A stretch of DNA of 35,135 bases from Acidobacteriaceae bacterium (GTDB lineage Bacteria; Acidobacteriota; Terriglobia; Terriglobales; Acidobacteriaceae), in NCBI GenBank assembly GCA_027311125.1, contig DAICZO010000432.1:1-35135 (forward strand). The letters are read 5' to 3'. The stretch's first letter is position 1, and each line of letters opens with the position of its first letter. This document shows positions 141-34,110 of the stretch, in pieces. The position numbers and the translations under genes were made by a program. The notes beneath the pieces are model-generated. The model was not told where the DNA came from. It ran no database searches and saw only the letters and a list, made by a program, of their open reading frames with translations.

Positions 141-167
141 CACCTTTGCTCAGAAACAGGAGTGCTG

Positions 168-851
168 ATGATGCCAGATGCAGTCGTAGTGACTAGCCCA
201 CGAGTTGAGGAAGAGGCCGTATTTCGAGCTGTCATTGGTGCCGGGGATTCGTTTGTTTATGAGATTCTACGTGGACAGTTTGTGCGTATTGTGGACCTTG
301 AAGGCAACCAGGCGGTGGATACGTTGTTCTACAACGCTCACGACTATGCCGATCGGTATAGTGCGCAGGATACGATTCGCACGCAGCAGAATATCTATCT
401 CACGACGGGTACCAGATTGATATCTACCGAGCGCAATGTGCTGCTGACGATTGTTGCCGATACATGTGGGCGCCATGACACGCTGGGGGGAGCTTGCTCG
501 ACCGAGAGCAACATGGTTCGCTATGCGCTGGACAAACGACACATGCATGCTTGCAGGCAGAGTTTCTTGAAGGGCGCGCTGACCTGGTCGATGAAGACGG
601 GGCAGGAGCTAGGCAAGCGGGATCTGACGGCAAATATCAATTTCTTCATGAATGTTCCTGTGACACCGGCAGGACAGTTGACGTTCGAAGACGGAGTCTC
701 CGATGCGGGGAAATATGTGGAGCTACGTGCAGAGATGGATGTATTGATGGTGATCTCCAACTGCCCGCAACTCAACAATCCATGTAATGCATACAACCCC
801 ACGCCAGTAGAAGTGTTGATTTGGAATGCGGCCGAGGAGAACGATGTTTAA
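168..851 (+). CDS. Urea carboxylase-associated protein 2 (DUF1989 family)
   Basis: ORF 162..851; AGGAG at 158-162 favours ATG at 168. Contains GGACSTESN and [22 protein letters not shown] typical of DUF1989; overlaps the urea carboxylase start. Confidence 0.85.
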
Positions 852-3800
852 GAAAGTATTGATTGCGAATCGCGGAGCCATTGCCTGTCGGATTGAACGG
901 ACGTTGCAACGGATGGGAATTGGATCAGTTGCGGTTTATTCCACGGCTGATAGCCACTCGCTACATGTTTACGATGCGGATGAGGCGGTGTTGATAGGGC
1001 CAGCACCTGCGGCACAAAGCTATCTCTCGTTTGAAGCAATCTTTGCTGCAGCGAGACAGACGGGGGCGGAAGCGATCCATCCCGGGTATGGATTTTTGAG
1101 TGAGAATGTAGTGTTTGCACGGGAGTGCGCTGCACGCGGCATTCGATTTATCGGGCCTGAACCAGAACACATTGAAGCGTTCGCGTTGAAGCATACCGCG
1201 CGGGCGACTGCGCAGCGATGCGGAGTTCCCTTGTTGCCGGGAACTGGACTGCTGACGGACTTGGAAGATGCGCTGATACAGGCCGAACAACTGAAGTATC
1301 CGGTCATGCTGAAGAGCTCCGGCGGCGGTGGCGGGATTGGGATGCGAGTATGTCTATCGGCGGAGCAACTGACTGATGCGTATGACTCGGTACTGCGATT
1401 AAGCCGTGCAAACTTTGGCGATAGCGGAGTGTATCTGGAGAAGTATGTTGCACAGGCTCGACATATTGAAGTGCAGATATTTGGCGACGGCAAGGGTGGT
1501 GTGATCGCGTTAGGGGAGCGGGACTGCTCTGCACAACGACGCCACCAGAAGGTGCTTGAAGAGACACCAGCTCCGGGACTATCCGATACGACACGGGAGC
1601 AGTTGTATGCCTCCGCGATTCTGCTGGGTAAGGCGGTGAACTATGCGTCGGCAGGCACGGTGGAGTTTATCTACGACGACGACAGCGGCGAGTTCTATTT
1701 TCTGGAAGTGAACACCCGGCTACAGGTGGAACACGGCGTGACGGAGCAGGTGACGGGCGTGGACCTGGTGGAATGGATGGTGCTGCAAGCAGCGGGAGAG
1801 ATGGCCCCGCTTGATTCATTCGACATTAGGCGAACAGGAGCTTCGATTGAGGCGCGAGTGTATGCCGAAGACCCAGCACAGAATTTTCAGCCGTCGCCGG
1901 GCAAATTGACGCTGGTTCGCTTTCCGGGTGCGGAGTTGGCACGCGTGGAGACGTGGATTGAGTCCGGAGCAACCATTACGCCTTACTACGATCCTATGAT
2001 AGCCAAGATCATCGTGACAGGAAGAGATCGTGAAGAAGCTCTGCTGAAGCTAGATGCGGCGCTGGCGGCGAGTTCCATTGATGGCACCGAGACGAACCTG
2101 CGTTATTTGCGGAAGATTGCTGCGACACCGGAGTTTGTATCGGGAAATGTTACAACTGCATTTCTAGGCCGATTTACGTTCTCTCGGAATGCAATTGAGG
2201 TACTGGAAGGCGGCACACAGACGACCATTCAGGATTATCCCGGACGGATTGGATACTGGAACGTGGGTGTACCGCCTTCGGGGCCGATGGACCATCAGTC
2301 GTTGCGGATAGCGAATGGACTGGTGGGAAATCCGGAGGGGACGGCTGCGATTGAGTTTGCAACTATGGGCGGTCGGATTCGCTTCCATGCGGATGCTCTG
2401 ATCGCTTTAGCCGGGGCAGACATGGGAGCGAAGCTGAACGGCCAACCGGTGGAGAGATGGGTCGCTATTCCGGTGGCCCGTGGCAGTGTGTTGTCGCTGG
2501 GAGCAGCGGCAAAGGAAGGCATTCGCAGCTACCTGGCCTTGCGCGGCGGAATCGATACGCAGCCGTATCTGGGTAGCCGCAGTACGTTTATGCTGGGTGG
2601 TTTTGGCGGCCATGCTGGACGGGCTTTGCGGGCTGGCGATGTAGTCCATCTCGGAGAGCCAGATATTGCACTGCGCGAGCCAGCAGTGTTGCCGGCAGAG
2701 TATGTTCCAACACTGAGCAGGCGATGGGAGATCGGCGTGTTGTTTGGACCGCATACGGCTCCGGATTTCTTCACCGAAGACGACATTGAGATGCTGTTTG
2801 CGACCGACTGGAAGGTTCACTATCAGAGTGATCGCACGGGTGTTCGCCTGATGGGGCCGAAGCCCCGGTGGGCTCGAGCAGATGGTGGTGAGGCGGGCCT
2901 GCATCCCTCGAATATCCACGATAACGCCTACGCGATTGGGACGATCGACTTTACGGGAGACATGCCGATTCTGCTTGGTCCGGATGGGCCTAGTCTTGGT
3001 GGCTTTGTTTGTCCCGCGACGATTGTGCAGGCCGAGCTATGGAAGCTGGGACAATTAAAGGCTGGCGATCTGATCCAGTTTCGACGTGTCACGTTGGCCG
3101 AGGCAGAGGCGATGGAAGTTGCGCAGGATTTATTCCTGAAGGACTTCAAAAGCGAACCCCCTTCCCTGCCGACGGTATCCGTGCCGGAGCCTGCAGTGAT
3201 CGCAGCCTATACGGACCGGCCGCAGGCGATGGTATTTCGGGCCGATGGCGACAAGTATCTGTTGGTGGAGTACGGCGAGTTGCAACTGGATCTGAATCTG
3301 CGTTTCCGTGTGCATATTCTGGAACAGAACCTGCGTGCGGCAAGTTTACCGGGGATCATCGACATTACGCCTGGAGTACGGTCACTGCATATCCACTATG
3401 ACAGCCGCGTGATGCCTCGGCAGAAACTGATCGAGGTTCTCGATGAGATGGATCGAACGATGCCGGAGTTGACGGACATTACGGTTCCGTCACGCATTGT
3501 TTATCTGCCGCTATCCTGGGACGATCCGCAGGCGAAGCTTGCGCAGCAGAAGTATATGCAGGCCGTGAGACCGGATGCTCCGTGGTGTCCTTCGAATATT
3601 GAATTTATACGGCGGATCAATGGGCTGGATTCGATTGAGGATGTGTATCGGATTGTGCACGAGGCAAGCTATCTGGTGCTTGGACTGGGCGATGTCTACC
3701 TTGGCGCCCCGGTGGCGACACCGATTGACCCGCGGCATCGCCTTGTAACGACCAAGTACAACCCGGCACGGACGTGGACACCGGAGAACGCTGTCGGTAT

Positions 3801-4440
3801 TGGCGGCGCATACATGTGTGTATATGGCATGGAGGGTCCGGGTGGATATCAACTGGTCGGGCGGACGATTCAGGTCTGGAACACGTGGAAGTCTACAACA
3901 GCCTTCGTTGAGGGCACGCCGTGGTCGCTGCGCTTCTTCGATCAGATACGGTTTTATCCGATAACCGCGGACGAACTGCTGCGTGCGCGAGAACTGTTTC
4001 CGCATGGACGATATGAACTGCGCATCGAGGAAACGACATTCAACCTGGCGGAGTACCAGAAGTTTCTTGACTCGATCCGTGATGAGGCGGCGGTGTTCAA
4101 GAAGCATCAGAAGGAAGCCTTCCATGCAGAGCGCGAGCGCTGGCGAGTCGCGGGTCTACTGACGGTAGCCGAGCAGGACGAGGCTCTGGAAGAGGTGGCA
4201 AGCGCAACCGTGGCAGACGGTTGTGAGGCTATTTCATCGCCCGTAACCGCAAGCATCTTTCAGATTGCCGTCGAGCAAGGCCACGTAGTGAAGGATGGCC
4301 AGAAGCTCATCGTGCTGGATGCCATGAAGACGGAGATCGTTGTGGCTTCGCATGTGGATGGCGTAGTGGAAGAGGTGCACTGCGCGCCTGGAGCGTTGGT
4401 TAGCGGCGGACAACTCCTTGTCTCGGTACGCCCAACATAG
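844..4440 (+). CDS. Urea carboxylase (biotin carboxylase + AHS2/AHS1 (KipA/KipI-like) carboxyltransferase + biotinyl domain)
   Basis: [17 protein letters not shown] biotin carboxylase N-terminus, [12 protein letters not shown]-grasp, AHS2/AHS1 segments in the middle, C-terminal biotin motif [12 protein letters not shown] at 844 overlaps the upstream stop (ATGTTTAA). Confidence 0.95.
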
Positions 4441-4486
4441 GGGTCATGGATGGCACGGAGCTAACGCAGAAACGATTAGGAGTGAC

Positions 4487-6298
4487 ATGGACATCACATC
4501 ACTGCAGGCAGCCTATACCGCGGGACATTTGAGTCCGAAGGAAGTAATCGAGAGCGTATACGACAGGATTGCAACCGAGGGTCTTCGGCCTGTGTGGATA
4601 TCGGTGGTGCCGCGCGAGCAAGCAGTTGCTCGTGCGGAAGCGTTGATGCGGACGGATAGTGCTTCGCTGCCTCTTTATGGAATTCCCTTTGCGGTGAAGG
4701 ACAACATCGACGTGGCCGATATGGTGACCTCGGCCGCTTGCCCCGCTTACTCGTACATGGCTGCGGAGAGTGCGACCGTGGTATCAAAGCTTGAAGCGGC
4801 TGGCGCAATCCTGATCGGGAAGACGAACATGGATCAGTTTGCGACCGGACTGGTGGGGACGAGAACGCCTTATGGGACCTGCTCCAGCGTGTTCAATGCC
4901 GAATATATCTCTGGTGGATCGAGTGCTGGCTCTGCTGTTGCCGTTGCGAATGGGAGCGTCACGTTTTCGCTGGGAACGGATACGGCAGGCTCCGGACGTG
5001 TTCCGGCGATGTTCAACAACATTATTGGACTGAAGCCGACACGCGGAGTGGTGAGTACACATGGCGTGGTCCCCGCCTGTCGCACGCTGGATTGCGTTTC
5101 TATTTTTGCGGAGACAGCGCTTGATGCCTCGATGGTACTGCGCGTGGTCAGTGGCTTGGATGCGAACGATCCCTACTCTCGTGAAGCTGGTGTGGGTTCG
5201 GGTGCGACCCCATGGTCTGGAGCGAAGAGCTTTCGATTTGGGGTGCCATACGGCGAGCAGCTACAGTTCTTTGGCGATCCGTACAACGGGTCACTCTACC
5301 AGTCGACTATCGATGCGTTGGTCACGTTGGGCGGTGAGCCAGTGGCTGTTGACCTGGCCCCGTTTCTCGGCGCCGCTCAGTTGCTCTACAAGGGGCCGTG
5401 GGTGGCGGAACGCTACGCTGCTATCTCTACGTTTATACAAGACCACGTTACGGATATGGATGCTACTGTCGCGAGCATCATCGCAGGTGGGGCGAAATAC
5501 AGCGCAGTTGATGCATTTGAAGCGGCCTATCAACTGGCTGCATTTCGCCAGGCGACGACAAGCACCTGGAATTCGATTGACGTGCTGGTACTACCAACCG
5601 CGCCTAGAACCTACACGATTGAACAGATCCACGAGTCACCGATCGAGCGGAATAGCCACCTCGGCTACTACACGAATTTTGTCAATCTACTGGATCTTGC
5701 AGCGGTCGCTGTTCCTGCGGGGATACGTGCAGATGGTCTGCCGTTCGGCGTCAGCATCATTGGACGTGCGTTCTCAGAGCAGGGACTTTTGCCGTTGGCG
5801 GATAGGCTGCACCGTGCACTGACCACACATCTCGGGGGGTCTTCACGTGAGCTATCGATGGTGCCTGTTCTTCGGAATCCCACTGTCCCTCATGCTTGCT
5901 TGCTGATGGCAGTGGTAGGTGCTCACCTGTCTGGACAACCATTTAATTGGCAACTTACACAGCGCGGAGGCCGGCTGCTCCGACGTTGTAAAACTTCTTC
6001 AGACTATCGGTTTTATGCTTTGAGGAATACCATTCCTGCCAAGCCTGGGCTGGTTCGTACACCAGGCTATGTTGGACCAGGTATTGATGTTGAAGTCTGG
6101 TCGTTGCCCGCAAATACTGTTGGAACGTTTGTGGATGGGGTTCCGCAGCCTCTCTCGATTGGGACGCTTGAGTTGGACGATGGCAGCCTGGTGAAGGGCT
6201 TTCTGGTCGAGCCATGTGCTGTTGAAGATGCTATTGAGATCACTCACCTGGGCGGCTGGCGACAGTACCTTGCAACCCTGACCGGTACGGAAGGATGA
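4487..6298 (+). CDS. atzF: Allophanate hydrolase (AtzF-type, amidase signature)
   Basis: ORF 4418..6298; ATG at 4487 preceded by AGGAGTGAC. Amidase signature AVKDNIDV...GGSSAGSAVAVANG...GTDTAGSGRVPA plus AtzF-like C-terminal domain; follows urea carboxylase. Confidence 0.9.
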   Translation: MDITSLQAAYTAGHLSPKEVIESVYDRIATEGLRPVWISVVPREQAVARAEALMRTDSASLPLYGIPFAVKDNIDVADMVTSAACPAYSYMAAESATVVSKLEAAGAILIGKTNMDQFATGLVGTRTPYGTCSSVFNAEYISGGSSAGSAVAVANGSVTFSLGTDTAGSGRVPAMFNNIIGLKPTRGVVSTHGVVPACRTLDCVSIFAETALDASMVLRVVSGLDANDPYSREAGVGSGATPWSGAKSFRFGVPYGEQLQFFGDPYNGSLYQSTIDALVTLGGEPVAVDLAPFLGAAQLLYKGPWVAERYAAISTFIQDHVTDMDATVASIIAGGAKYSAVDAFEAAYQLAAFRQATTSTWNSIDVLVLPTAPRTYTIEQIHESPIERNSHLGYYTNFVNLLDLAAVAVPAGIRADGLPFGVSIIGRAFSEQGLLPLADRLHRALTTHLGGSSRELSMVPVLRNPTVPHACLLMAVVGAHLSGQPFNWQLTQRGGRLLRRCKTSSDYRFYALRNTIPAKPGLVRTPGYVGPGIDVEVWSLPANTVGTFVDGVPQPLSIGTLELDDGSLVKGFLVEPCAVEDAIEITHLGGWRQYLATLTGTEG

Positions 6299-6349: not shown

Positions 6350-7060
6350 CTATTCCTGCGGAAGGTCTTTCCTGTCTGAACCAGCCGACTTAGTTTTGTT
6401 GGGCTTGTAGGTTCCGGCGAGAATCTCTTCAATTGTTGAGATCATCTCTGGAGAATCAGGGGCAACTGCAGGATCGAGCCGCGCGATCACCTTACCATTC
6501 TTGTCTAGTATGAATTTACTGAAGTTCCAATGTACCGGGCCGCCGCCAGGTGCGTCTTCACCCTTGGTCAAATATAGATAGAGCGGTATTTGATCATCTC
6601 CGACTAGCTTGGACAGTGCCATGACAGGGAAATCGACCTTGGCATCAGAGTAGTACTTCTGGATTTCATCTTCTGTCCCGGGCTCCGATGCTCCAAAATC
6701 ATTTGACGGTATCCCAAGTACAATCAGGCCTTTGTCGTGATAGGTGTCGTTCAGCTTTATCAAGGCAGGAAGCTGATTCGCGTAGCTTGATTTCCGTGCC
6801 AGGTTAACAAGCAGAATTATCTTTCCTTTGTAGTTGGAAACTGGGACACCTTTACCGTTGGGACCTGGGAGACTGAAGTCATAAGCTGATTTCTGGGCTT
6901 TCGCAGTCTGCGATTGATTGCCATACCCGCTACCGGAAGAGATCATGGTCTTAGCTATTGCGGACATGGTAGGAAAGGCAGCCAGTCCGACACACCCTGC
7001 TACAGCAACGACAAGCGTCAGACGGCCTCGCCAGATGTGTACACCCATACTCTTCTCCAA
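6350..7060 (-). CDS. Glutathione peroxidase-fold (thioredoxin-like) exported protein lacking catalytic cysteines
   Basis: GPx-like IILLVNLARKSSYANQLPAL, GLIVLGIPSNDFGASEPGT and WNFSKFILDKNGKVI with N-terminal signal/TM segment; canonical Cys positions are Ser. Confidence 0.75.
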   Translation of the reverse strand: MEKSMGVHIWRGRLTLVVAVAGCVGLAAFPTMSAIAKTMISSGSGYGNQSQTAKAQKSAYDFSLPGPNGKGVPVSNYKGKIILLVNLARKSSYANQLPALIKLNDTYHDKGLIVLGIPSNDFGASEPGTEDEIQKYYSDAKVDFPVMALSKLVGDDQIPLYLYLTKGEDAPGGGPVHWNFSKFILDKNGKVIARLDPAVAPDSPEMISTIEEILAGTYKPNKTKSAGSDRKDLPQE

Positions 7061-15979: not shown

Positions 15980-15995
15980 TGTGATATACGTCACA
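15980..15995. promoter_or_regulatory. Crp/Fnr-family-type operator TGTGA-N6-TCACA
   Basis: TGTGATATACGTCACA; perfect 5+5 half-sites with 6-nt spacer in the divergent intergenic region 15846-16165. Confidence 0.65.
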
Positions 15996-16165: not shown

Positions 16166-17620
16166 ATGGCGCGTGTCGTTGTCCTTGGAGCAGGAGTATC
16201 GGGTCATACGGCTGCTGCGTTTCTTCGCAGATGGCTGCGTGCTGAGGATGAAGTCGTGGTTGTCTCTCCGAAGCCCGACTATAACTGGCTACCTTCCAAC
16301 ATCTGGGTGGGTCTGGGACGGATGCAGCCAAACGATGTGCTGATACCGCTGGCACAAATCTATAAACGTCATGGAATTATCTTTAAACAGGCAAAGGCGT
16401 TGAGTTTGTATCCAGAGGGCAGCGATAAGCTGGATCAACCGCATGTGAAGATTGAATCGACCCTTGCTGAAGGCGCAGCGGCGCAGGAGTTATTGACCTA
16501 CGATTATCTGATCAATGCGACAGGACCCAAGCTGAACTTTGCGGCGACCGAGGGACTGGGCCCTAGTGGAAATAGTCTGTCCGTTTGTACCGCGGACCAT
16601 GCTCAAGAAGCGGCTCATACCTTTCTCGATCATGTAGCAGCGATGAAGCGCGGAGCACGAAGACGCTTTGTGGTTGGAACAGGCCATGGCACCTGCACCT
16701 GTGAGGGGGCAGCCTTTGAATATGTGGTGAACCTGGAGTTTGAGTTGCGCCGCCACAAGGTGCGTGAGCAGGCAGAGGTGGTGTACCTATCGAACGAATA
16801 TGAGTTGGGGGACTTTGGTATGGGTGGTGCCCATATTCGTAGAAATGGATATATCACTCCAACAAATATTTTTACGGAGTCATTATTTGCAGAACGAGGC
16901 ATTGAGTGGATTATTCGCTCGCATGTAACCAAGGTTGAACCATCTCGGATTTTTTACCAGACATTGTCGGGCGAAGAGTATGAACTGCCTTTCGATATGG
17001 CCATGCTACTGCCACCCTTCTCTGGCGTGGGCCTGGATGCCTTTGACAAGATGGGTACCAACATTTCGTCGCGACTGTTTGCACCGAGCGGCTTTATGCG
17101 CGTGGATGCTGCCTATTCCGCGAAACCGTATGACCAGTGGAAGGCAAGTGATTGGCCTCGAAGCTACCAATCGTCCGAGTATTCCAATATCTTTGCGGCA
17201 GGTATTGCATTCGCTCCGCCACACGCTATTTCGCAGCCACACTACACTGCCACCGGCGTTCCGATCTTTGCCGCACCACCCCGCACGGGGATGCCTTCTG
17301 CAATGATCGGCAAAGCGGTTGCACACACTATCGCAGATAGAATTCGCGGTGTTGAACGTGCGCCACACATGGCGTCCATGTCGGAGTTGGGTGCAGCGTG
17401 TGTTGCTTCGGCCGGTGCCGACCTGGTGCACGGCTCTGCAGCCAGTATGACGGTATTTCCAATTGTGCAGGACTATGATCGTTACCCCGAGTACGGACGT
17501 GATCTAAACTTCACTGTTGGTGAAATTGGACTTGCAGGGCATTGGCTTAAGCTGTTGCTTCACTACCTATTTATGTACAAGGCTCGGCTGCTCCCTGGCT
17601 GGACCCTGATCCCGGAGTAA
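16166..17620 (+). CDS. FAD/NAD(P)-dependent oxidoreductase, sulfide:quinone oxidoreductase-like
   Basis: Rossmann start MARVVVLGAGVSGHTAAAFLRR; NWLPSNIWVGLGRM; GTGHGTCTCEGAAFEY; amphipathic C-terminus. SQR-family resemblance recognised by eye. Confidence 0.7.
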   Translation: MARVVVLGAGVSGHTAAAFLRRWLRAEDEVVVVSPKPDYNWLPSNIWVGLGRMQPNDVLIPLAQIYKRHGIIFKQAKALSLYPEGSDKLDQPHVKIESTLAEGAAAQELLTYDYLINATGPKLNFAATEGLGPSGNSLSVCTADHAQEAAHTFLDHVAAMKRGARRRFVVGTGHGTCTCEGAAFEYVVNLEFELRRHKVREQAEVVYLSNEYELGDFGMGGAHIRRNGYITPTNIFTESLFAERGIEWIIRSHVTKVEPSRIFYQTLSGEEYELPFDMAMLLPPFSGVGLDAFDKMGTNISSRLFAPSGFMRVDAAYSAKPYDQWKASDWPRSYQSSEYSNIFAAGIAFAPPHAISQPHYTATGVPIFAAPPRTGMPSAMIGKAVAHTIADRIRGVERAPHMASMSELGAACVASAGADLVHGSAASMTVFPIVQDYDRYPEYGRDLNFTVGEIGLAGHWLKLLLHYLFMYKARLLPGWTLIPE

Positions 17621-27691: not shown

Positions 27692-30328
27692 CTATTGTCC
27701 GCCTTTGGGCATCGGCATCGAACGGATGTAGGCCACGATCTCCTTCATGTCCTGCGCATTCATGTTGGTCAGCGGCATTCCACCCTGCTGCATCTTTTTG
27801 CTGTGATGGCGCAACAGATTTTCCAACATAGCGGAGGGCAAGATGGAAGCGGTTCCCGCCAATCCTGGTGCAGCAACCGTTCCGTGCAAACCGCCGACAC
27901 CGTGACACGTCTCGCAGGAGTACTTCTGGAAGACTGCTTTTCCAAGCGTGGCTTCGGGGCTCAGCGGAAGAGCTTTTAGCTCTTCGGTTGCAGCTCGCGT
28001 CATGGCAGCTACTTGACTCGCGCTGACAGGAGCGGACGTTGCCTGATTAGCTGCCGGTGCGGCACCCTGGCTAGTAGCAACAGACTGCGGTGCAGGAGTC
28101 GCACCCAGGCTGGAGAGATACGCAACCAGTTGCTGCATCTCAGTGTCGGAGACCGTAATCGAGGGCATGCCTCCATCACGCATCTTCTTGGTTGGGTGAT
28201 GGATCATTGCCGCGAGTTGAGTTGACGAAAACTTCTTGTCGATGCCGATCAACGCAGGAGCAAAGTGAGTGCCTTGCCCGACTGTGCCATGGCATGCAGC
28301 ACAACCATTGGCGACGAAGACGGCGCGCCCTGGCAATGGCTGAGCACTGGCAGTAACCGCATGGACACCGGCAACAGGCGCAGAAGCCGCGTTTGGAGCC
28401 GACGGTGCGGGAGCCGCGTTGTTGGCAACCTGTTCCACAGGAGCTTCCGCAGTGGCAGCCGCTGCTACCTGCTGCGACTGACCTGCCGGAACAGATGTAA
28501 GCGACCGCAGATACGCCACTACTGAACTAATCTGATCGGGAGTCGCGTCCAGTGCGGCCATGCCACCCGCACGCATCTTCGCGCTGGGGTTGTGTAGCAG
28601 TTGCGCTATCTGGGTATCCGAGTGTTTGGCAATCAAGCCAGCCATCGGCGCTACGCGGGCGGTGCCGATACCAGCCTGACCGTGACAGGCAAAGCAGGCG
28701 TGGCTCTGGAAGAATTGCTGACCAGCTGCGGCCTTGGCCGAGAGTGGAGCAGCTTCCGCAGCCTTCGCCGCGACCGGTGCTTCCTTGCCATTCGCCGCAG
28801 ACTTTGGCTGCTCGGCATTGTAGGTCGCGGGTACGTTTGCAGCACTGGTACCTAGAACGCCAAGATAGCTCAGCAAAGCGGACATATCGCTGGGAGAGAG
28901 ATCGACGGCGGGCATATTGCCGGCACGCATCTTGGGATTGGGGTTGTGCAGCCACTCGGTCAGTTGTTCGGCAGGATATTTACTGGTGACTCCAACCAGG
29001 CTGGGTCCAGCGGGGGTACCCATACCGGTCTCTCCATGGCAACCGGAACAGCCGTTCGCACTGAAGACTCCCTTGCCCTGACCGACGACTGGGTTGACCG
29101 GGCCAGAGGCCGCCGCAACTGCTCCGGCAGAACCACCCGGCGAGGCAACATAAGGCTCAAAGGGAGCCTTGCTGTAGGCCTCTTCCTGGGCATCCTGACG
29201 GGCAATCTGGGCTGCGGTGGTTGGGTCGCGCTCGTCGTCCCGGTGGCTCTTCATGCCGAGGTAGACCATGCCAAGCAGCACGATGGATACGCCCAGCAGC
29301 GGGATCGGTCGACGCCAGGGTCTACGTTCCAGACTGCGATCGAGGAACGGCATCAGGAAGAACATGAGCGCCAGAATTCCAGGGATGACCACGATGGCGA
29401 AGACAACCATCGAGCCTTGCCAGAACTTGAGCCACTCAAACATCGAAAGGTAATACCATTCCGGCCGGGGTAGGAACTGGGTATCGGCAGGATTGGCAAC
29501 AGGGCCCAGTTCTACCGGATGAAAGAAGGCCAGAATGCCGAGACCGATCATCAGCAGCAGGGCAAAGGCCATGTCCATGATGACCTGGCGGGGATAGAAA
29601 CCCTCCGGGGCAAGCTTAGGATGGACGGGGTCTTCATTGATAGGACCAGCCGGGCCAGCCTTCCGAAAGAGCGCAATGTGAACGGCGATAAACAGGAAGA
29701 TTGCGCCTGGAATCAGAAACAGGTGAGCCACATAAAAGCGCGAAAGAGTCAGCGTTCCAAGGGTGTCTCCGCCACGCAGCAGGCGCGTCAACCACTCCCC
29801 TACCAGCGGCACTTCTCCGACAATGTTGGTGCCGACGGCCGTTGCGAAGTAGGCTTTCTGGTCCCATGGCAGCAGGTATCCGGTAAAGCCCATGGCGAGT
29901 ACTAAAAAGGACAGCAGCGCACCCGAAGCCCACAGCAGTTCTCTTCGACCCTTGAAGGATCCATAAAGAAATGTCTGTAGAAAGTGCAGCAACAGCACCA
30001 CGATCATGGCACTGGAGCCGTAGTAGTGCAGGCTACGCAGAAAGGCACCCGCAGCCACCTGCTTGGTGATGTAGGCAACGCTGGTGTGTGCCGTCTCCGC
30101 CGAGGGCACATAGTAGAGCGCTAGGCAGAGACCGGTGATGACCTGAGAGATGAAGATGAAGATCAGGCCTGAGCCGAAGACATAGGCCAGTCGTGCACCA
30201 CCCGGGATAGGTTCATCCAGCGAGGTATGCATCAGGCTGCCAATGCCGGTTCGTCGGTCCAGCCAGCCATACAGACGGGCTGGCGCACTTTTGTTCTGGG
30301 AGAGTTCGGGCTTCACTGGTTCGCTCAC
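27692..30328 (-). CDS. Cytochrome b (bc-complex type) fused to four tandem C-terminal cytochrome c domains
   Basis: Cytochrome b core with RSLHYYGSSAMIVVLLLHFLQ, SRFYVAHLFLIPGAIFLFIAVHIALF, PRPEWYYLSMFEW; then CSGCH, CFACH, CAACH, CETCH at + coordinates 29036-29050, 28682-28696, 28289-28303, 27902-27916. Confidence 0.93.
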   Translation of the reverse strand: MSEPVKPELSQNKSAPARLYGWLDRRTGIGSLMHTSLDEPIPGGARLAYVFGSGLIFIFISQVITGLCLALYYVPSAETAHTSVAYITKQVAAGAFLRSLHYYGSSAMIVVLLLHFLQTFLYGSFKGRRELLWASGALLSFLVLAMGFTGYLLPWDQKAYFATAVGTNIVGEVPLVGEWLTRLLRGGDTLGTLTLSRFYVAHLFLIPGAIFLFIAVHIALFRKAGPAGPINEDPVHPKLAPEGFYPRQVIMDMAFALLLMIGLGILAFFHPVELGPVANPADTQFLPRPEWYYLSMFEWLKFWQGSMVVFAIVVIPGILALMFFLMPFLDRSLERRPWRRPIPLLGVSIVLLGMVYLGMKSHRDDERDPTTAAQIARQDAQEEAYSKAPFEPYVASPGGSAGAVAAASGPVNPVVGQGKGVFSANGCSGCHGETGMGTPAGPSLVGVTSKYPAEQLTEWLHNPNPKMRAGNMPAVDLSPSDMSALLSYLGVLGTSAANVPATYNAEQPKSAANGKEAPVAAKAAEAAPLSAKAAAGQQFFQSHACFACHGQAGIGTARVAPMAGLIAKHSDTQIAQLLHNPSAKMRAGGMAALDATPDQISSVVAYLRSLTSVPAGQSQQVAAAATAEAPVEQVANNAAPAPSAPNAASAPVAGVHAVTASAQPLPGRAVFVANGCAACHGTVGQGTHFAPALIGIDKKFSSTQLAAMIHHPTKKMRDGGMPSITVSDTEMQQLVAYLSSLGATPAPQSVATSQGAAPAANQATSAPVSASQVAAMTRAATEELKALPLSPEATLGKAVFQKYSCETCHGVGGLHGTVAAPGLAGTASILPSAMLENLLRHHSKKMQQGGMPLTNMNAQDMKEIVAYIRSMPMPKGGQ

Positions 30329-30336
30329 ATTGGCTC

Positions 30337-30894
30337 CTAGCCGAGCACTTCTTGGTTCGGAACGTTCGATCGAAAATATTTAAAGTGGACCATGAGTTTT
30401 CCGTTCTCCACCTTATGCGGAAGTGCGTCGAGGCCACGCGGTGGTGGCCCGGCGACGTGAGCACCATCGGCTGCAAAGCGACCACCATGGCAAGGGCAGA
30501 CAAACTCGTTCTGCGCATTCTGCCAGGAGGCGCTGCACCCCAGGTGGGGACAGATAGCCGAGATCACCTTGAGTTGATTGTCCTCAGCTTTGGTGACATA
30601 CACCGACTGGGACGAGACTACCTCGCGCCAGCCATCACGCTGAGCAAAATCAATGGTCTTACGGATAGGTTTGGCCAAATCGGAAAACTCATCGACCGTA
30701 CCCACCACCGACCACTCTCCCAGGCCAGCCTTGGTGTAGAGCGGATACAACACATAGCGCAACACCGGCACAGCGAGTAAAGCCCCCATGCCTGCCGTAC
30801 CGATACCAAGCAACGTGCCAAAGAACGAGCGGCGGTTGATGATGATCACATTTTCTTTTGTTTCGTTCGTGTCCAGCCCAGGGCCGTGTCCCAT
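30337..30894 (-). CDS. Rieske 2Fe-2S protein
   Basis: CPHLGCSASW...CPCHGGRF cluster motifs and N-terminal TM anchor; ATG at 30894 preceded by AGGAGA. Longer ORF to 30918 begins with GTG. Confidence 0.93.
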   Translation of the reverse strand: MGHGPGLDTNETKENVIIINRRSFFGTLLGIGTAGMGALLAVPVLRYVLYPLYTKAGLGEWSVVGTVDEFSDLAKPIRKTIDFAQRDGWREVVSSQSVYVTKAEDNQLKVISAICPHLGCSASWQNAQNEFVCPCHGGRFAADGAHVAGPPPRGLDALPHKVENGKLMVHFKYFRSNVPNQEVLG

Positions 30895-30902
30895 ACTGTC
30901 TC

Positions 30903-32219
30903 CTAGAAATTTAGCCACAAGGCCATATACAGCGTGTTGTTGTCGGACGCGTTGCGATTTGCGCCGTCATAGTTAGTGCTGGCACCGTTGAATTTGGTAT
31001 AGCCGGTGTAGGCCACGTTGATGTCGATATTCTGTACCGGCCAGTAGCCAAACTGGGCGACATATCCGGTACTGTTGGGGCTTCCGTTGTTGCTGCCGCT
31101 TACTGCTGCAGGAGCATAGAGCAGCGCATCGGCGTTGCCACTGGTGGTAAAGACCGCGCCCGTTGCACTGTACTTGTTGGCCCAATGATAGGTGCTGTCG
31201 AGCTTGAACGTATTCAGATGGTTCTTCAGGTTGGTTGAACCACCCGCGGCAGACGTCGCATCGAGGGTCGTTGACTGGTGAATGTACGTTCCATGAACAT
31301 CCAGCAGATTGGGACCGAACGGATGCTCATATTGAAAGTCGACAGCGGGGTCACGGTAATGATCCTGCGGGCCGCTGATGGCTCCCGGATAGGAGTTCAT
31401 GGCGATACCGTAGGTTCCCACCTCGAAGTAGTTGTCGCCTATGGTCTGCTGCCAGGCCGCACGCCAGTAGGGTGCTACGCCGCTGATGTTATACGAACTG
31501 CCGACACCAGTTACCGGCACGGCTGAACCCGCGTGTTCTGATCGATACAGCGTGACATCCGTGTACAGGTGCCCATTCCACATGCTGTAGGCTCCAACTC
31601 CAGCGACATCGCCTCCCAGACTGCCGATCACCGGTGCTGCAATCGGACCAACGGCAGCGCTGGACGAGATCCAGGGGAAGCCCCAGGCGGGGGTGCTGTT
31701 CCATACATCTTCCACCGTGGGATTGTTGTTCAGCGTGATGCCATACATCCAGTCGCGTCCGGCGAGGGTCTTCTGATTGGCATAGCGCAGATCGGTATTA
31801 TCCATGCTGAAGTGGTCGTTCTGATGGGTGTAGGTCAACTGCGCCATTCCCCCAAAGTGCGAAGCGAATCCTCCCGCGAGAAAGAGACTTAGCTGCTGCG
31901 GAAAACCAGCCGTACCGTTTTGCGTTGCGGGCTGCTTCGTCTGTGCAGCGGTATCGGAGAGCAGCACCATCGCGGACAGCGGAATGTATTTGGAGAGCAG
32001 CAGATCTTTGCTGTTGCCCACCTTGTCCGTCGCCGTCATATCCGTCAGCACATAGCCCTTCAGCTTGAAGTTGCGTCCAAACGCCGTAAGTTCGGGTGGG
32101 TTGCTATGACAGACATTGCATGAAAGTCCCGTCTGACGGGCAAAACTGGGGACCGCGTAGGCATCGCCTATGGCAAGTAATAGAAACAGAACAGGTAAAA
32201 TTAGGATTGTTTTCCGCAC
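30903..32219 (-). CDS. Cyc2-like outer-membrane monoheme cytochrome c-porin fusion (438 aa)
   Basis: GTG at 32219 preceded by AAGGAG; signal VRKTILILPVLFLLLAIGDAYA; SFARQTGLSCNVCHSNPPELTAFGRNFKLKGY (CXXCH at 32106-32120); remainder beta-barrel-like ending YMALWLNF (C-terminal Phe). Confidence 0.7.
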   Translation of the reverse strand: MRKTILILPVLFLLLAIGDAYAVPSFARQTGLSCNVCHSNPPELTAFGRNFKLKGYVLTDMTATDKVGNSKDLLLSKYIPLSAMVLLSDTAAQTKQPATQNGTAGFPQQLSLFLAGGFASHFGGMAQLTYTHQNDHFSMDNTDLRYANQKTLAGRDWMYGITLNNNPTVEDVWNSTPAWGFPWISSSAAVGPIAAPVIGSLGGDVAGVGAYSMWNGHLYTDVTLYRSEHAGSAVPVTGVGSSYNISGVAPYWRAAWQQTIGDNYFEVGTYGIAMNSYPGAISGPQDHYRDPAVDFQYEHPFGPNLLDVHGTYIHQSTTLDATSAAGGSTNLKNHLNTFKLDSTYHWANKYSATGAVFTTSGNADALLYAPAAVSGSNNGSPNSTGYVAQFGYWPVQNIDINVAYTGYTKFNGASTNYDGANRNASDNNTLYMALWLNF

Positions 32220-32366
32220 AGCGACTCCTTGGCATTCCGGTACAACTCTGCTACGAAACGGTAAAGTACGGGCGATATTGCTTGATCGCATGCCGGTACA
32301 ACGTCGACCTGATCCTAACCTGACCATCCGACACCACTTAGTCTCCTGCAACGAAACCGGAATGTA

Positions 32367-32382
32367 TGTGATGGCCATCACA
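32367..32382. promoter_or_regulatory. Crp/Fnr-family-type operator, perfect 16-bp palindrome TGTGATGGCCATCACA
   Basis: Self-complementary along all 16 bp; TGTGA-N6-TCACA; about 148 bp upstream of the GTG start of the cytochrome-porin gene. Confidence 0.75.
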
Positions 32383-32715: not shown

Positions 32716-34110
32716 ATGGCAACGGCACCAGCACTAGAGATACCTACCAAACAAACTGCAGCAACCCAACTCGAGGACGCTCAGTCCTACGCGCAACACG
32801 TCAATCCAATCTGGGTCAGGCTGCTCGACGTGCTGGGGATGAATGTGCAGTACACCCACTGCAGCGGTGCAGAGTTGTTTACCGCCGATGGGCGTACGAT
32901 TCTGGATTGTCTCTCTGGCTACTGCGTCCACAACGTTGGCCACAATCATCCGTACATCGTCGCCGAACTGGTTGCCGAACTACAGCGACAAAGCCCCGCC
33001 ATGCTGCAGAGCAATGTCGTGGAAGAGGCTGGTGCACTGGCCAGAACTCTGTGTGCACACGCTGGCGGCAAGGTATCGAAAGTGTTCTTCTGCAGCTCTG
33101 GTAGCGAGGGTGTTGAGACGGTTATCAAGTTTGCCCGCGCCCACACCGGCAGGACCGACATTGTCTACGCTTCCGGCGCGTTCCACGGTCTCACCTGCGG
33201 AGCGCTTTCGCTGATGGGCAGCGACTTCTGGCGGGAGAGCTTTGGCCCCATGCTGGGCGGCACCCACGAGGTCCCCTTCGGCGAATTGAAGCCGTTGGAA
33301 AAACTGCTCGCAACCCGCAAGATTGCAGCCGTGGTTCTGGAGCCCATCCAGGCCGAGGCCGGCATCGTACTTCCTCCACCCGGCTACCTCGAAGGTGTCC
33401 AAAAGCTTTGTCGCCAATACAACGCCCTCTTTGTGCTCGACGAAGTCCAGACCGGCATGGGGCGTACGGGAAGGTTTCTCGCCTCGCAGCGCTACGGCGT
33501 TGAGCCCGACATGATCGTGATGGCCAAGGCGCTCAGCGGCGGTCTGGTTCCATGCGCCGCCGTGCTGATGACCGATTCGATTTACAAATCCGTATTCCAC
33601 TCCTTGCGCAGAGCGTTCATTCACACCTCAACCTTCAGCGAAAACTCCCTGGCGATGCGTGCCGGCCTTTCGACGATCGAAGTGCTGGATCGCGAACACC
33701 TGATTGAGCGCGGAGAAGCCAAAGGCAATCAGCTTCGGGAGCGTTTGCGAACCGCACTGTCGGGATATCAGATGGTGAAGGAGATTCGCGGTGAAGGCAT
33801 GCTGACGGGTATTGAGTTTCAACCGCCCACCACGTTGGCGGCACGCGTCTCGTTCGAGGCGTTCAAGGCCATTCATGCTGGTCTGTTCGGTCAGATTCTG
33901 GTGATGCGGCTGTTCAAAGAGAAGAACATTCTGGCGCAGATCTGCGGGAACAACTTCATGGTGTTGAAGGTGGCACCGCCGCTTACCGTGTCCGACGCCC
34001 AGCTTGACCACATTGTGGAATCGATCCGCGATGTCGTCGAAACCATCCATGCATCGCCCAGCTTCTGGACCGATGCGCTACAACTGGCACGACGGGCAAT
34101 GGCAGCCTGA
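32716..34110 (+). CDS. Class III PLP-dependent aminotransferase (acetylornithine/ornithine aminotransferase-like)
   Basis: GHNHPYIVAELVAELQ, FFCSSGSEGVETVIKFAR, LDEVQTGMGRTG, DMIVMAKALSGGLVP (PLP lysine). Confidence 0.9.
   Translation: MATAPALEIPTKQTAATQLEDAQSYAQHVNPIWVRLLDVLGMNVQYTHCSGAELFTADGRTILDCLSGYCVHNVGHNHPYIVAELVAELQRQSPAMLQSNVVEEAGALARTLCAHAGGKVSKVFFCSSGSEGVETVIKFARAHTGRTDIVYASGAFHGLTCGALSLMGSDFWRESFGPMLGGTHEVPFGELKPLEKLLATRKIAAVVLEPIQAEAGIVLPPPGYLEGVQKLCRQYNALFVLDEVQTGMGRTGRFLASQRYGVEPDMIVMAKALSGGLVPCAAVLMTDSIYKSVFHSLRRAFIHTSTFSENSLAMRAGLSTIEVLDREHLIERGEAKGNQLRERLRTALSGYQMVKEIRGEGMLTGIEFQPPTTLAARVSFEAFKAIHAGLFGQILVMRLFKEKNILAQICGNNFMVLKVAPPLTVSDAQLDHIVESIRDVVETIHASPSFWTDALQLARRAMAA

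Follow-up and report, generated by a model that had tools for sequence, protein, structure and literature searches.

Cyc2 of Acidithiobacillus ferrooxidans, Cyc2PV-1 of Mariprofundus and Cyt572 of Leptospirillum are fused cytochrome-porins, and the protein described here appears to belong to the same family. Such proteins combine one c-heme with a 16-strand porin in a secreted chain of 400-500 residues (PMC8406198). Our protein has one heme site, a length in this range, 16 predicted strands and a putative signal peptide. The mark of the family, as defined by Keffer et al., is AXPXFAR[Q/K][T/Y] before CXXCH and PXL after it (PMC8406198); this AXPXFAR[QK][TY]-CXXCH-PXL signature lies near the N-terminus in known members and in ours. 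MtrCAB, PioAB and MtoAB likewise pass electrons through an outer-membrane barrel. Their barrel has 26 strands and is served by a separate decaheme protein, whereas the protein studied here has one heme site and 16 predicted strands in a single chain. Homologues in Acidobacteria have already been mentioned as relatives of Cyc572 (PMC10654088).

The gene lies in a 35,135-nucleotide stretch of DNA from an Acidobacteriaceae bacterium, which was analysed as a whole and is called the window. An earlier note, made from the sequence alone, had read it as a Cyc2-like cytochrome-porin fusion and had named no strand; the gene is on the minus strand. The two adjoining genes, one for a Rieske protein and one for a cytochrome b/c protein with four c-hemes, are absent from that note and are the most telling on function. 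The features are collected in Table 1.

Table 1. Positions in the window of the operon genes and of the features of the cytochrome-porin gene
Feature	Position	Strand	Details
Cytochrome b fused to four monoheme cytochrome c domains	27692..30328	-	878 aa; 8 bases past the Rieske gene
Rieske [2Fe-2S] protein	30337..30918	-	193 aa; Pfam PF00355, E 2e-12; overlaps the end of the cytochrome-porin frame, spacing -16
Cyc2-type cytochrome-porin gene	30903..32219	-	438 codons; positions include the stop; GTG start at 32219
Predicted 16-strand beta-barrel	30909..31979	-	residues 81-437; AlphaFold2, Foldseek
Cyc2 signature AVPSFARQT-GLS-CNVCH-SNP-PEL	32088..32156	-	CXXCH at 32106-32120
Putative signal peptide	32154..32219	-	residues 1-22, ending AYA; by inspection
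AAGGAG, putative ribosome-binding site	32225..32230	-	5 bases upstream of the GTG; read from the sequence
CRP/FNR-family-type palindrome TGTGATGGCCATCACA	32367..32382	.	perfect; 148 bases upstream of the GTG

The cytochrome-porin and its predicted fold

The GTG start and the AAGGAG ahead of it, both named in the earlier note, are present. The protein begins with VRKTILILPVLFLLLAIGDAYA followed by VPSFARQTGLSCNVCHSNPPELTAFGRNFKLKGY, and inspection by eye suggests a signal peptide with a typical n-region, a hydrophobic run and the AYA site. The mature N-terminus, VPSFARQTGLSCNVCHSNPPEL preceded by A, agrees with the Cyc2 consensus of Keffer et al. An alternative longer frame opens at TTG 32405; the GTG start is preferred because the signal peptide and the ribosome site fit it. 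As the earlier note had also observed, the protein has a single CXXCH (residues 34-38), which presumably carries a heme. AVPSFARQT occupies residues 22-30, just ahead of the heme site, PEL follows three residues past CNVCH, and the length of 438 residues compares with the at least 365 required of a Cyc2.

The full signature occurs once in the six frames of the window and in none of 200 shuffled windows. Its columns are invariant or nearly invariant across alignments of orthologues, which rules out a chance CXXCH in an ordinary porin, and the strict AXPXFAR[Q/K][T/Y] motif is found in 35 of the 37 operon-type proteins described below. Orthologues that are 58-97% identical over the whole length are present in many genomes, indicating a real conserved gene. 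Sequence searches of Pfam, NCBIfam and the PDB with the cytochrome-porin gave no family match, and a PDB profile search returned chance-level matches only.

AlphaFold2 predicted 16 strands both from 25 aligned sequences (pLDDT 71) and, with the signal peptide removed, from 53 sequences (pLDDT 84.7, pTM 0.84). The alignment for the latter, better model was restricted to the fetched loci, without rows from plasmid records. Its first nine residues have a pLDDT below 50, and the heme-site region (mature residues about 10-40) averages 65-78. Foldseek matched the model in the PDB to 16-strand-type porins of the outer membrane (OmpT, OmpU, OmpF, OmpC and DcaP, E about 1e-8 to 1e-6), and also to OprP (2o4v, TM 0.53), one of two porins named as structural homologues of Cyc2 (PMC8406198). 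The barrel that the earlier note had proposed, and had suggested checking by structure prediction, is thus upheld by the models, in which it takes up about 357 residues; the chain ends in ...LWLNF. The Cyc2-like identity likewise agrees with the published motif and length (PMC8406198). By motif, length and predicted fold, the window protein is a Cyc2-family cytochrome-porin, and it probably resides in the outer membrane. One heme site, 16 strands and a single chain rule out a conduit of the Mtr/Pio type.

A conserved operon with a quinol complex

The 878-residue protein matches the Pfam families Cytochrome_B (6e-48) and, in four stretches, Cytochrom_C (3e-41). In all 37 operon-type loci the b/c protein has the PEWY quinol-site motif and a pair of His residues spaced by 14, and the Rieske protein has CPCH; stricter patterns hold for most of them (C[PT]HLGC in 33 and the first His pair in 32). 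Judged by these motifs, the two neighbours are a quinol complex of the cytochrome bc/b6f type. In the window, a candidate Met ligand is present in every one of the four c domains. The linkers joining them are 32-45 residues long, with Ala, Pro, Ser, Thr, Val, Gln and Asn as the main residues. We read the four-heme tail as a putative flexible heme arm that could bridge the periplasm. Three loci that form an early-branching sister group of the operon clade (L094, L096 and L119) have five c-heme domains in the b/c fusion instead of four, so the length of the arm varies.

The three genes stay together. At 36 of the 37 loci with at least 58% identity (58-97%), including that of Acidipila rosea, the cytochrome-porin, Rieske and b/c genes are found side by side; at the sole exception (L077) the stretch stops at a contig edge. 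Most spacings fall between -16 and +27 and between 0 and +51 bases, and one locus (L094) has the order Rieske, b/c, porin. The other genes that flank the operon in the window are common only to a near-identical locus (L091), apart from two that recur in two to three loci. In the tree, the operon type forms a single clade (38 rows, support 100/100). Less similar members from Acidobacteriota adjoin other Rieske/cytochrome b complexes, or none within the stretch examined, and shuffling the labels on the tree never produced so clustered an arrangement. It is very improbable, then, that the gene order is a relic and that the cytochrome-porin exchanges electrons just with the common pool of cytochrome c, independently of its neighbours: some family members of about 50% identity do have no bc genes in the stretch examined, but the trio persists where sequences have diverged by about 40%. 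Its frames overlap or lie close together, and its flanks change.

Ten Cyc2-like genes of about 50% identity (L104, L106, L116, L118, L123, L129, L131, L134, L137 and L139) have a different Rieske/cytochrome b cluster within a few kb. It includes an octaheme c protein in all except L129, where the stretch ends too early. These clusters suggest that a second type of unit linked to quinones exists.

Most of the 24 operon genomes searched have an additional bc-type cytochrome b, 32-42% identical to that of the operon. In 17 of these genomes a second bc complex, 33-36% identical, lies 3.0 to 4.6 kb from COX1, which indicates that the operon complex is an additional branch and not the oxygen branch, and rules it out as the housekeeping bc complex. 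The genome of the window has a Rieske/b pair near COX1 on contig 360, and a further Rieske and one-heme b/c pair of 60% identity on contig 167. It also has a second, distant Cyc2-like gene, encoding 527 aa with AIPAFSRQY-GTSCTTCH-IDFPKL. This gene belongs to a group (L036, G000:C10, 534-6110) that also encodes a Rieske protein, a cytochrome b, an FAD/4Fe-4S oxidoreductase and a protein with a plastocyanin domain.

Most relatives of the cytochrome-porin come from metagenome-assembled genomes. The closest named ones, at 97% identity, are from Acidobacteria (L091), and the isolate Acidipila rosea DSM 103428, a member of the Acidobacteriaceae, has a homologue of 76% identity (L064). In a sample of the family, homologues were found in 47 of 201 genomes, and in about 28 of these the identity reaches 58% or more. 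Among 37 sampled genomes of the window's genus, an operon-type homologue is present only in the window's own. The distribution within Acidobacteriaceae is patchy. The earlier note had cautioned that related fusions may also occur in organisms that do not oxidise iron. This is borne out for organisms not known to do so, since Acidobacteriota make up most of the carriers and RuBisCO is absent from the majority. Full-length homologues of 31-40% identity are found on plasmids of Caballeronia, Paraburkholderia, At. ferrooxidans, Acidiphilium, Polymorphobacter, Methylocystis and Ideonella. A c-type cytochrome adjoins the homologue or lies near it in all five plasmids examined, and in Caballeronia a HiPIP is nearby as well.

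A perfect TGTGA-N6-TCACA palindrome lies upstream of 16 of the 37 operon-type genes and of 10 of the 52 remaining members of the family, where chance would give 0.02 in either group. Within these loci it occurs at 0.525 per kb in the upstream zone, compared with 0.009 per kb outside it. Scans for sigma-70 promoters and terminators found no excess over shuffles. The second Cyc2-like gene of the window's genome has a perfect box at 6556, 446 bases upstream. Another in the window (15980-15995) precedes a pyridine nucleotide-disulphide oxidoreductase gene (16166-17620, PF07992).

Elsewhere in the window, genes for a DUF1989 protein, a biotin-dependent carboxylase with carboxyltransferase domains and an allophanate hydrolase stand in a row (162-6298) and are a urea amidolyase-type set. 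A divergent class III aminotransferase (32716-34110), whose top NCBIfam score is for the prodigiosin enzyme PigE and falls far under the cut-off, lies beside the operon only in the window and in the near-identical locus.

Proposed electron flow between menaquinol and iron

The coupling of the cytochrome-porin to the quinol complex is well supported; direction and substrate are inferences. We see the operon as a private wire between menaquinol and dissolved iron, most likely directed outward for Fe(III) reduction, and give this reading an even chance. The Cyc2-type protein would place a small periplasm-facing c-heme domain, fused to its 16-strand porin, at the outer membrane. Its partners would be the Rieske protein and a b6-type cytochrome b that carries four C-terminal c-heme domains on flexible Ala/Pro-rich linkers. 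The wire would join menaquinol in the inner membrane to a partner in solution at the outer-membrane pore, one that exchanges single electrons and is most likely dissolved iron. Menaquinol would be oxidised at the cytochrome b/Rieske site, and electrons would move from heme to heme through the arm to the heme of the porin, which the arm presumably contacts, and on to Fe(III) outside. The tethered hemes would stand in for the soluble carriers of acidithiobacilli (Cyc1 and rusticyanin), and outward flow would give proton translocation without oxygen. Tentatively, we go a step further: the three genes may be a self-contained respiratory unit of Acidobacteriota, in which a tethered-heme bc complex docks directly on a Cyc2-type porin and passes electrons from menaquinol to Fe(III) outside, without soluble carriers or multiheme conduits.

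Outward flow is favoured because the partner is a quinol complex and the operon has no gene for an oxidase or a soluble carrier. Of a rus-type operon (cyc2 with cyc1, rusticyanin and aa3 oxidase) only the cyc2-like gene is present, together with the Rieske and cytochrome b/c genes. Outward flow is also favoured because the genomes make menaquinone, whose potential is low. Electron flow from iron into this quinone is very uphill; from menaquinol to Fe(III) at acid pH it is steeply downhill, and the reverse steeply uphill. The menaquinone route (PF02621) was found in nine of the ten genomes examined, and no ubiA_proteo match exceeded its cut-off. MK-8 occurs in Granulicella and Edaphobacter (PMC4148992, PMC11354219). 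Moreover, the heterotrophic Acidobacteriota Acidicapsa ferrireducens, Acidicapsa acidiphila and Acidobacterium capsulatum are Fe(III) reducers (PMC8790237). In a model for At. ferrooxidans, drawn from proteomics and transcriptomics, electrons pass from quinol through bc1, cytochromes and Cyc2 to Fe(III) (PMC7735108, PMC8790237).

The same proteins could instead work inward and, like the Cyc2 of the classical pathway, oxidise dissolved Fe(II). Electrons would then leave the heme arm partly for soluble cytochromes and a terminal oxidase, and partly run backwards via the bc complex into the quinone pool. We regard this as possible but doubtful. The gene content of the operon speaks against it, as does menaquinone, which makes the backward branch costly. 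Ferric reduction by Cyc2 is based on expression data and loss of function. The Cyc2 proteins tested biochemically are described as Fe(II) oxidases, which counts against the outward reading, and Cyc2PV-1 oxidises Fe(II) at +208 mV (PMC8406198). The carriers are largely from mine and acid sites, as judged by record titles. COX1 was found in all 30 operon genomes searched; these haem-copper oxidases provide an aerobic sink for Fe(II) oxidation, and this too counts against outward flow. RuBisCO-family genes, which would fit inward flow, were found in four of 29 operon genomes (G061, G062, G075 and G080, as candidates for the large-subunit family). The other 25, several of them incomplete, show none, Acidipila rosea among them, and reverse flow for CO2 fixation would thus rarely be needed, which favours the outward direction. 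The literature searched holds no report of Fe(III) reduction by Acidipila rosea, which counts against it. Acidobacterium capsulatum reduces Fe(III), yet no locus titled as that strain is among the best 80 matches; members of the family may thus be able to reduce ferric iron without the operon.

Another partner than iron in either of these roles is unlikely. The wire might be a safety valve for surplus electrons, might serve other soluble oxidants, metals, humic compounds or an electrode, or might protect against Fe(II). Keffer et al. call additional functions of Cyc2 possible (PMC8406198), and the different Rieske/b complexes beside family paralogues hint at several uses. Yet the signature and the barrel are typical of an iron-linked family, and the named proteobacterial homologues adjoin HiPIP and c-type cytochromes, the usual neighbours in iron pathways.

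Significance and comparison with known systems

Iron reduction and oxidation by soil and mine Acidobacteriota without Mtr-type conduits is unsettled, and opinion is divided on whether Cyc2 works in one direction, as an iron oxidase, or as a gate in both. The three-gene operon, which couples a Cyc2-type gate to a quinol complex of its own, is present in Acidipila rosea DSM 103428, a heterotroph in culture, and so opens both questions to direct genetic test. If the outward mode proves true, cyc2 would be misleading as a metagenome marker of iron oxidation in Acidobacteriota.

Cyc2-family proteins are already known; the operon with the Rieske protein and the tetraheme b/c fusion appears to be new. 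The literature searched holds no report of a Cyc2-type gene in one operon with these two. Classical Cyc2 systems have genes for cyc1, rusticyanin and aa3 oxidase alongside, whereas the window has the Rieske protein and the tetraheme fusion, and its type is carried, in contrast to the classical one, by menaquinone-type Acidobacteriota mostly without RuBisCO. Other Cyc2-like genes of Acidobacteriota (L116, L137) encode a homologous porin and also lie by a quinol-type Rieske/b complex, but that complex has an octaheme c subunit and these genes stand elsewhere on the tree than the operon type. A functional parallel is the proposed route of ferric reduction in At. ferrooxidans, where the petI/petII bc1 complexes and Cyc2 follow the same logic of quinone pool, bc complex, c hemes, Cyc2 and iron (PMC7735108, PMC8790237). 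There the bc operon is separate and soluble or anchored carriers form the link; in the window, all three genes form a single unit, with the c hemes attached to cytochrome b itself.
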